The notes under the pieces were generated by a model. That model worked only from the letters and a program-made list of their open reading frames with translations. It did not search any database and was not told the origin of the DNA. DNA of 38,901 nt from a candidate division WOR-3 bacterium (GTDB lineage: Bacteria > Hydrothermota > Tepidihabitantia > Tepidihabitantales > JBDRVQ01). A program made the position numbers and the translations under genes. Shown here piece after piece: positions 18,215 to 31,017 of this stretch; positions within the stretch are counted from its first letter, which is position 1, and every line of letters begins with the position of its first letter. Location of the stretch: positions 1 through 38,901 of the forward strand of contig JBDRVQ010000017.1 of assembly GCA_039801905.1 (NCBI GenBank), read 5' to 3'.

Positions 18215-18442
18215 ATCCGGATTTGGATTAAACCCCTGATTAGGTTTGGGATTAGAGTTTTTATTAGGCCCTCTATTAGAGCCCGGGTTAGGTCTCTGAT
18301 GAGCCCCCCAATTATCCTTTCCATTAGACTATCTATTATCCTTCTCATTAAACCCTATATTAAACTTTCTATTAAGTTCAAAATTATGCCTTTTCTTAGC
18401 CCTTATATTAAACCTTCTATTAAATCCCCGATACCATCCCCT
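18215..18442. repeat. Degenerate 12-nt tandem array, copy 1 (19 units)
   Basis: Nineteen units of exactly 12 nt run from 18215 to 18442 without an insertion or deletion. Most units begin ATTA, followed by a purine-rich then pyrimidine-rich stretch; variants include ATTAGGCCCTCT (18263) and ATTAAACCTTCT (18407). On the plus strand the register reads as a tetrapeptide I-(K/R)-x-x; on the minus strand it reads as LIxx, interrupted by two stops. Neither strand shows a convincing gene. The same register and flanking blocks recur at 30429-30632. This array fills most of the first half of the 592-base stretch between the lipoprotein gene and phoH. Confidence 0.85.
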
Positions 18443-18491
18443 GTATGCTTCACCCCTTTTTATAAAGATAAACCCCTCCTATTCAATAAAA
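18428..18491. repeat. Shared 64-bp block next to array 1
   Basis: This block aligns without gaps to 30618-30681, with 56 of 64 positions identical. The strongest core is TATAAAGATAAACCCCTCCT at 18461-18480. On the minus strand the core reads as AGGAGGGG followed by an AT-rich segment, so it could be a ribosome-binding or promoter-like signal. Confidence 0.8.
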
Positions 18492-18523
18492 GTCTTATAA
18501 TCTAACTCTGTTCTTAGTTAAGC

Positions 18524-18586
18524 CTACTTACCCGATAACACCTCCTTAATCTCTCTTCTCATTTTAAGGATTATGCCTTTCTTCAT
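18524..18586 (-). pseudogene. Remnant of the small gene found in repeat copy 2
   Basis: A minus-strand reading frame of 20 codons ends in REIKEVLSGK then TAG. This corresponds to the LEIKEALAEK-TAG end of the longer small gene in copy 2 (30719-31017). The bulk of that gene is missing here, as if internally deleted. It is listed as a remnant, not as an expressed gene. Confidence 0.5.
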
Positions 18587-18603
18587 AGTCCTCTATAATA
18601 AAA

Positions 18604-18630
18604 ACGGAAATACCCCCCAATTTCTGACAT
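18604..18630. repeat. Shared G-run block upstream of the small-gene remnant
   Basis: ACGGAAATACCCCCCA and the following TTTCTGACAT recur at 31127-31153 with few changes. On the minus strand it reads as a TATGTCAG segment followed by a run of six G. In both copies it lies on the 5' side of the small minus-strand ORF. The remaining bases up to the phoH promoter (18631-18730) hold no feature I can name. Confidence 0.7.
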
Positions 18631-18730
18631 AAAATTTCCCCTTTTTATAAGTCTTTAACTTATAATAACTTACTTTTGAAAGGGAGACCGACCAATTTCC
18701 TCTAAATTATTTTTAAGGAAAACCGATCGG

Positions 18731-30428: not shown

Positions 30429-30632
30429 ATTAGGCTTGGGATTAAAATCTCAATTATACTTCTCATTAGGTTCTTAATTACCATCCCGATTAGACCCTGT
30501 TTTATTATCATTATTAGGTCTTCCTTTATCTAACGGATCAGATATCGGATTAAAGGGGTTATTAGGCTCTCGCTTCCACTGATGATTTGGCTTCTGATAA
30601 GACCTTTAATTAGGCTTCCGATACCATCACCT
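30429..30632. repeat. Degenerate 12-nt tandem array, copy 2 (17 units)
   Basis: Seventeen units of exactly 12 nt, in register from 30429 to 30632, begin mostly with ATT or a variant (ATTAGGCTTGGG, ATTAAAATCTCA, ATTATACTTCTC at the left end). They continue directly into the same 64-bp block as copy 1. The register matches that of copy 1 and the last unit (ATACCATCACCT) is nearly the same as in copy 1 (ATACCATCCCCT). One stop interrupts each of the two candidate reading frames. The bases between the PRTase promoter and this array (30332-30428) hold nothing I can name. Confidence 0.85.
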
Positions 30633-30681
30633 GTATGCTACACCCAATTTTATAAAGATAAACCCCTCCTACCTCATAAAA
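30618..30681. repeat. Shared 64-bp block next to array 2
   Basis: Partner of 18428-18491 (56 of 64 identical). The core TATAAAGATAAACCCCTCCT (30651-30670) is identical in both copies. Confidence 0.8.
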
Positions 30682-30718: not shown

Positions 30719-31017
30719 CTACTTCTCCGCTAAAGCCTCCTTAATCTCCAATAGGACCTCCCTTAAAGGGATCTCCCCTTCCTCTTTTCCTTTAAGAGTT
30801 TATAGAGTTTTCTGCCAAAGGCATAATAGGCAAAGTGATAAATAACCGAAATTCCTCGCTCCTCCAAAATTTCTTTCACTTTCTCTTCCAAAAATAAGAG
30901 ATAGTCGGCTATCCCTTTTAGGTGTCTCCTCTTCCCCTGAGGATAGTAAAGGGCATATCTTCTTACTATCTTTTCCAGTTTTTCAACCGGTTTTCTCTTC
31001 TTTATCTCAATCCCCAT
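30719..31017 (-). pseudogene. Small gene of the repeat element, disrupted by a frameshift
   Basis: A minus-strand ATG at 31017, preceded by a good GGAGGAG, starts a Lys/Glu-rich helical protein (MGIEIKKRKPVEKLEKIVRR ...). The frame ends early at 30763 (LKEKRKGRSL then TAA). In the -1 frame the sequence continues smoothly as KEEGEIPLREVLLEIKEALAEK and ends in TAG at 30719-30721, and its tail is matched in repeat copy 1. A single-base loss near 30785-30795 (in an A/G-rich run) would explain this, or a programmed shift. The restored protein would be about 98 residues. No family is recognised. Confidence 0.65.

Follow-up and report, generated by a model that had tools for sequence, protein, structure and literature searches.

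Two phased arrays in one window

What holds short, degenerate repeat units in strict register, twice on one contig of a candidate division WOR-3 bacterium, when the units themselves differ considerably in sequence? In the window, by which we mean the whole stretch of 38,901 nucleotides that was analysed, the original prediction had described two indel-free 12-nt arrays, of nineteen and seventeen units, the first with a 64-bp flank. The perfect register was borne out in both arrays, autocorrelation and a period scan being in agreement, and the second array, 12 kb away, is real and belongs to the same element. The unit counts were slightly different: array 1 has 18 units, its supposed nineteenth (18431-18442) being the start of a conserved tail, and array 2 has 16, ending at 30620 and not at 30632. 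The flank is this same tail, of which the genome holds 54 copies, and the original observation is therefore confirmed and far larger in extent than first noted. The features of the window are:

18215..18430, + strand: array 1, 18 degenerate 12-bp units, consensus A-TTA-R-R-C-C-Y-Y-Y-N, indel-free
18430..18481, + strand: conserved tail 1, GATACCATCCCCTGTATGC...TTTTTATAAAGATAAACCCCTCC, in fixed register relative to array 1
18482..18640, - strand: semi-conserved downstream segment of copy 1, a putative remnant (from the alignment of copies) at the end position of coat-like gene B
30429..30620, + strand: array 2, 16 units of 12 bp, more diverged, in register with its own tail
30620..30671, + strand: conserved tail 2, its core differing by a C-to-A change
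30763..31017, - strand: decayed coat-like gene B with an open frame of 84 aa and no C-terminus; gene A is absent

Identity at a lag of 12 was 0.55 in array 1 and 0.43 in array 2, as compared with 0.18-0.39 at the remaining short lags, multiples of 12 excluded. When periods of 8 to 18 were scanned over the whole 38.9-kb window, 0.68 bits per column was exceeded only at period 12 and only by these two arrays. TRF recovered mere fragments of them, since the units are too divergent.

A dispersed element whose register is maintained

At least 56 copies of the element are present in the window's genome, 54 with the tail and two with a variant tail (contigs C16 and C40), a count that is a lower bound given that the assembly breaks near element copies; contig ends lie within about 1 kb of copies on C5, C20, C32, C36, C44 and C48. 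Each element consists of 17-18 degenerate units of 12 bp, in which a TTA is almost invariant, and of a conserved tail of about 50 bp that follows in fixed register. Allowing up to 3 mismatches, the tail has 54 matches in 1.70 Mb (25 forward, 29 reverse), and a reversed control pattern has none in the same genome. The array precedes the tail in all 54, with a TTA-like unit at both positions 1 and 2 before the tail in every copy, and the array signal falls sharply beyond unit 18. The tail sequence was absent from 40 relatives and from a collection of 84,980 species (the latter without the genome itself), and its one exact match in IMG/VR had no adjoining array.

At least 16 of 17 units are in register in 49 of the 54 copies, and 803 of 918 units carry an exact TTA. 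These bases (unit positions 2-4) are 92-96% conserved, and identity between copies reaches 0.86-0.92 in the TTA columns versus 0.35-0.52 in the others. Autocorrelation at multiples of 12 shows almost no decay across 72 bp, and the register can therefore be considered absolute, with breaks in a few copies (e.g. L040, L050 and L052). According to simple ORF calls the copies are intergenic and occur in every orientation of the neighbouring genes, with no link to the direction of transcription in this genome (16 ++, 13 -+, 13 --, 6 +- and 6 undetermined). The strand balance of 25 to 29, the intergenic placement and the independence from gene direction favour a role at the DNA level. Copies lie 7.6-41 kb apart on their contigs, with a mean of 18 kb and a coefficient of variation of 0.41 versus 0.80 expected at random (P 5e-5), an evenness that is suggestive and specific to the window's genome, given that assembly gaps at repeats could bias toward longer intervals; the arrays of the relative G020 are unevenly spaced. 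In several copies (L009, L019, L020 and L155) a further repeat that contains a hairpin (GGCGGGTGCTGATTTTGGTGGCACCCGCC) is found upstream of the array, as is a conserved lead-in, and a conserved piece around CCTCTATAATAAAAACGGAAATACCCCCCAATTTCTGACA occurs downstream of many tails, 200-300 bp past the tail (18580-18640 in the window).

The original prediction had offered a coded tetrapeptide, a periodic protein-binding site or a structured RNA as explanations, and a decayed coding origin as a further one; this interpretation is partly supported. What speaks for coding is that the ATT-ARR frame is poor in stops (0.7 versus 3.6 expected), but even this most open frame has stops in 44% of copies, and in the would-be ATT codon the third-position T is 94% conserved as opposed to only 68% for the first position. 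We thus discarded the coding tetrapeptide, since the constraint includes a synonymous third position that is not free to vary; moreover, the arrays of relatives are built from unrelated units. For a structured RNA, folding was no better than that of shuffled sequences on either strand (z +0.16 and -1.71), and in the whole window the sole Rfam match was a tRNA. A repeat that encodes a tetrapeptide or a structured RNA is thus hardly credible. The decayed coding origin applies to the coat-like genes beside the arrays and not to the array itself. The periodic protein-binding site is supported, as the genes beside the arrays encode proteins homologous to one that wraps DNA in steps of 12 bp, from which we infer binding.

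Genes adjoining the arrays

In four copies of the window's genome, a gene or a gene pair adjoins the tail. On contigs C1, C48 and C40 these are tandem genes A (~122 aa) and B (111-121 aa), on the strand opposite to the array, while on C16 a gene A is found, with 225 bp between it and the downstream array. Of these four intact gene-bearing copies, three have the array 77-83 bp beyond the 3′ end of B, and the end of gene B occupies there the segment that matches 18482..18640 of the window. A and B are paralogues within one family, to which the decayed B of the window also belongs (family HMM match at 30769-30978, E 9e-17); the predicted structure model of this truncated B was poor. The coat-like genes show dN/dS values of 0.13-0.27, which indicates purifying selection. 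About 50 arrays of this genome have no intact gene and still keep the TTA and the register, which argues for selection on the array itself, as a site served in trans. Neighbouring genes vary from copy to copy, and in the inspected flanks (1.5-8 kb) the genes look host-like, with no other viral genes noticed. At another locus of the same genome (L154, C4:51469-51822), an intact A-type gene stands among host genes, beside a sigma-factor-like gene, with neither array nor B.

To identify the family, whose alignment is devoid of any conserved stretch, a profile was built from 25 WOR-3 members and searched against all PDB sequences. The best six matches were all capsid proteins of Adnaviria: 3j9x of SIRV2 (E 6.1e-7, profile positions 3-111 of 121), 6wq0 (9.7e-6), 5w7g_A of AFV1 (4.7e-4), then 3fbz, 5w7g_B and 3fbl; the seventh was unrelated, with an E-value of 0.55. 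Initial Pfam matches were weak (E 0.005). The Pfam model PF12193 (Sulfolobus virus coat protein) matched 17 of the 25 members, the top one above its curated cut-off, and in the reciprocal search it found matches in 21 of the 28 genomes of the window's order, at sites largely the same as those found with the family profile; in 10 of these genomes it passed the curated cut-off, and 14 control genomes gave no match. For one member, an AlphaFold2 model (pLDDT 88.7) showed five helices, and when it was compared by Foldseek with 350,542 chains, the nine best were nine Adnaviria capsid chains, of which the top five had a probability of 1.00 and the top six TM values of 0.5-0.76, with E-values that are modest (best 0.0099), as is usual for small helical proteins; a viral Foldseek library was in agreement. 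Although the Foldseek E-values would be weak alone, the three routes (family profile, reciprocal Pfam model and predicted fold) agree, and the coat-like family is thus homologous, as judged from profiles and modelling, to the major capsid proteins of Adnaviria, with a predicted helical fold of the SIRV2 type. The AFV1 capsid is a heterodimer of two paralogous proteins and that of SIRV2 a homodimer. In both viruses the DNA is A-form and each capsid dimer takes up 12 bp of it (PMC5517147). The period of the arrays is exactly 12 bp, equal to this step.

Distribution of genes and arrays in the order

All 28 genomes of the window's order carry the family, with copy numbers between 3 and at least 30, and of 119 other genomes of the phylum only one has it. 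That lone member (L159, G097 C173:924-1265) has no array and could represent a transfer, a contamination or an older branch. Named matches are candidate division WOR-3 bacteria (NCBI phylum Caldifarciminota), lake sediments being among their sources, and the genes sit in bacterial WOR-3 chromosomes among host genes, the host not being archaeal. No relatives of a query from the g12 subfamily were found in IMG/VR contigs, nor any of two tested members in phage and plasmid records.

A check of relatives revealed the same architecture and period, without a common unit sequence. Arrays of 12 bp occur in five families of the order (f1 to f5), and those in the four families other than the window's are likewise indel-free. 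The units differ: the window's species has TTA-RR-CC, G001 has GG-AGCAG-CT, g12 has types of TCA-T-GGCA and G007 has TAGGTAA-CTA. Some matches to the TTA pattern in relatives (L056, L059, L071 etc.) were set aside as coding or simple repeats, and the array of L104/L139 was not counted, as it is situated in a coding stretch and scored only 0.68, and equally at period 9. Genus g4 has a 24-bp super-period of two 12-bp units, with an identity of 0.60 at lag 24 versus 0.43 at lag 12, and 12 tail copies (GTTCCCTATCTTT); an in-register array stands before each of them, faintest in L236 and L245. The super-period (L234-L245; G003, G006 and G009) looks as if two different dimers alternate, and these genomes carry both A and B. 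When 400 kb of G020, a single-contig relative, were scanned de novo, the result was 13 peaks at period 12, one of them probably coding, and no arrays of period 10, 11, 13 or 14. The 12-bp arrays of these first 400 kb (L214-L233) fall into at least five unit families, which might match different gene paralogues. At L096 (G027 C15), where there are two family genes, it is period 14 and not 12 that scores 1.12.

An array was found within 1 kb of 24 of 53 distinct gene loci, versus none of 27 rpsH loci taken as a control in these genomes (Fisher 5.5e-6), a P value to be taken loosely given that the sample consists of the best-scoring gene loci and that the operon around rpsH is densely packed with genes. 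A small overlap within the sample is possible, since a few named loci belong to genomes that may recur under a number. The near-fixed distances between array and gene are stronger evidence of linkage than this P value. In family f3 the array is upstream at all 16 linked loci, mostly at a distance of 262-297 bp from the gene; it is downstream at 4 of 4 linked loci of the window's genome, and G001 shows both geometries. In families f4 and f5 both arrays and genes occur, but at separate places. A 400-kb scan of G011 found no array despite its family genes (L194-L213), and in the genomes with few genes (G011, G013, G002, G008 and G005; L194-L213, L129-L132 and L135) no array lies beside them. The protein may also have a role without arrays.

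Possible function of the arrays

The arrays probably are phased nucleation sites for the side-by-side assembly of the coat-protein homologues, at one dimer per 12 bp. The small helical proteins would assemble along the array, the recurrent bases of the units setting the phase and the tail probably fixing the start point and the direction of assembly, with the bound DNA possibly in A-form. A and B could form a heterodimer, as in lipothrixviruses, and the few intact gene copies would supply the protein in trans to arrays that have no gene. Among the points against nucleation, the unit sequences change completely from genus to genus, while the viral coat proteins cover entire genomes, and the linkage is incomplete, given the genes without array in G011 and the separate arrays and genes in f4 and f5.

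As for the purpose, a domesticated DNA-organising filament takes about half of the probability in our estimate. In its most explicit form, the order would have domesticated, or would ancestrally share, the A-DNA-wrapping capsid protein of Adnaviria and would lay A-form filaments on genus-specific 12-bp tracks, an undescribed kind of chromatin organisation that we put forward only tentatively. The coat-like proteins could instead still build filamentous particles, as a gene-transfer agent or a capsid-only mobile element, the arrays being assembly origins that load chromosomal or element DNA. That the nearest homologues are virion proteins, that large genomes hold many gene copies with their own array, like a selfish cassette, and that copies differ in their neighbouring genes are all consistent with packaging; however, no other viral genes were noticed in the inspected flanks, the searches of IMG/VR contigs (with the g12 query), phage and plasmid records gave no relatives, presence in every genome of the order fits vertical maintenance, and the copies in the window's genome appear too evenly spaced for free spread, so that we consider packaging unlikely. 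Organisation of the chromosome is tentatively favoured over packaging or autoregulation because of the order-wide fixation, the absence of viral genes seen alongside and the even spacing.

An array acting only as a cooperative operator of the coat-like genes would explain its near-fixed upstream distance in f3, where promoter-like hexamers can be seen by inspection between array and gene, but it is improbable, as some 50 arrays of the window's genome keep TTA and register with no intact gene to regulate, and the array there lies downstream, not upstream, of B. It is more improbable still that the arrays are sites of an unrelated DNA-binding or partition protein, of the iteron type or centromere-like as in ParR-parC and TubR-tubC, with the coat-like genes merely linked. 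Plasmid centromeres with degenerate arrays of short period and a filament-forming binder are indeed known, but the period here is that of the capsid step, and arrays and coat-like genes are linked in three families whose geometries differ. No partition genes were recognised among the inspected ORFs beside the arrays.

Comparison with known systems

Adnaviria have been described as archaeal filamentous viruses unrelated to any other known viruses (PMC8497307), and in the open-access literature we found no report of bacterial relatives of their capsid protein or of such arrays. The capsid proteins of Rudiviridae (SIRV2, 3j9x) and Lipothrixviridae (AFV1, 5w7g; PF12193/PF21660) belong to the same family as the WOR-3 proteins by profile, curated model and predicted fold; they are likewise of about 120 aa, all helical and with a 12-bp step, and the A/B paralogous pair is as in AFV1. 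Unlike in Adnaviria, the WOR-3 genes are chromosomal across a whole bacterial order, lie in host surroundings where no viral gene module was seen, and come with phased DNA arrays, for which no counterpart was found described in the viral literature that was searched. Homologues fixed in a bacterial order bear on the origin of the capsid protein, from a cellular ancestor or as a captured viral gene, and the arrays offer natural phased DNA substrates for studying how an A-DNA filament starts. If they organise the chromosome, they would represent a new kind of sequence-phased bacterial chromatin, and should they serve DNA packaging, the gene-transfer system would be a new one. Two small proteins and synthetic DNA would suffice for simple tests of the predictions.

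REP, ERIC and MITE elements are also intergenic, multi-copy and found in both orientations, but the WOR-3 element has no noticed terminal inverted repeats, its 12-bp phase is selected and it is linked to a coat-like gene. In the ParR-parC and TubR-tubC plasmid centromeres, degenerate short tandem sites template a protein helix; there is one centromere per plasmid, with an adjoining motor, whereas the WOR-3 arrays are in more than 50 dispersed copies with no motor gene noticed beside them. In tobacco mosaic virus, a sequence phased with the subunit footprint, the RNA origin of assembly, nucleates the assembly of the coat. The arrays are proposed by analogy to work alike, the virus differing in its RNA, its 3-nt step and its unrelated protein.
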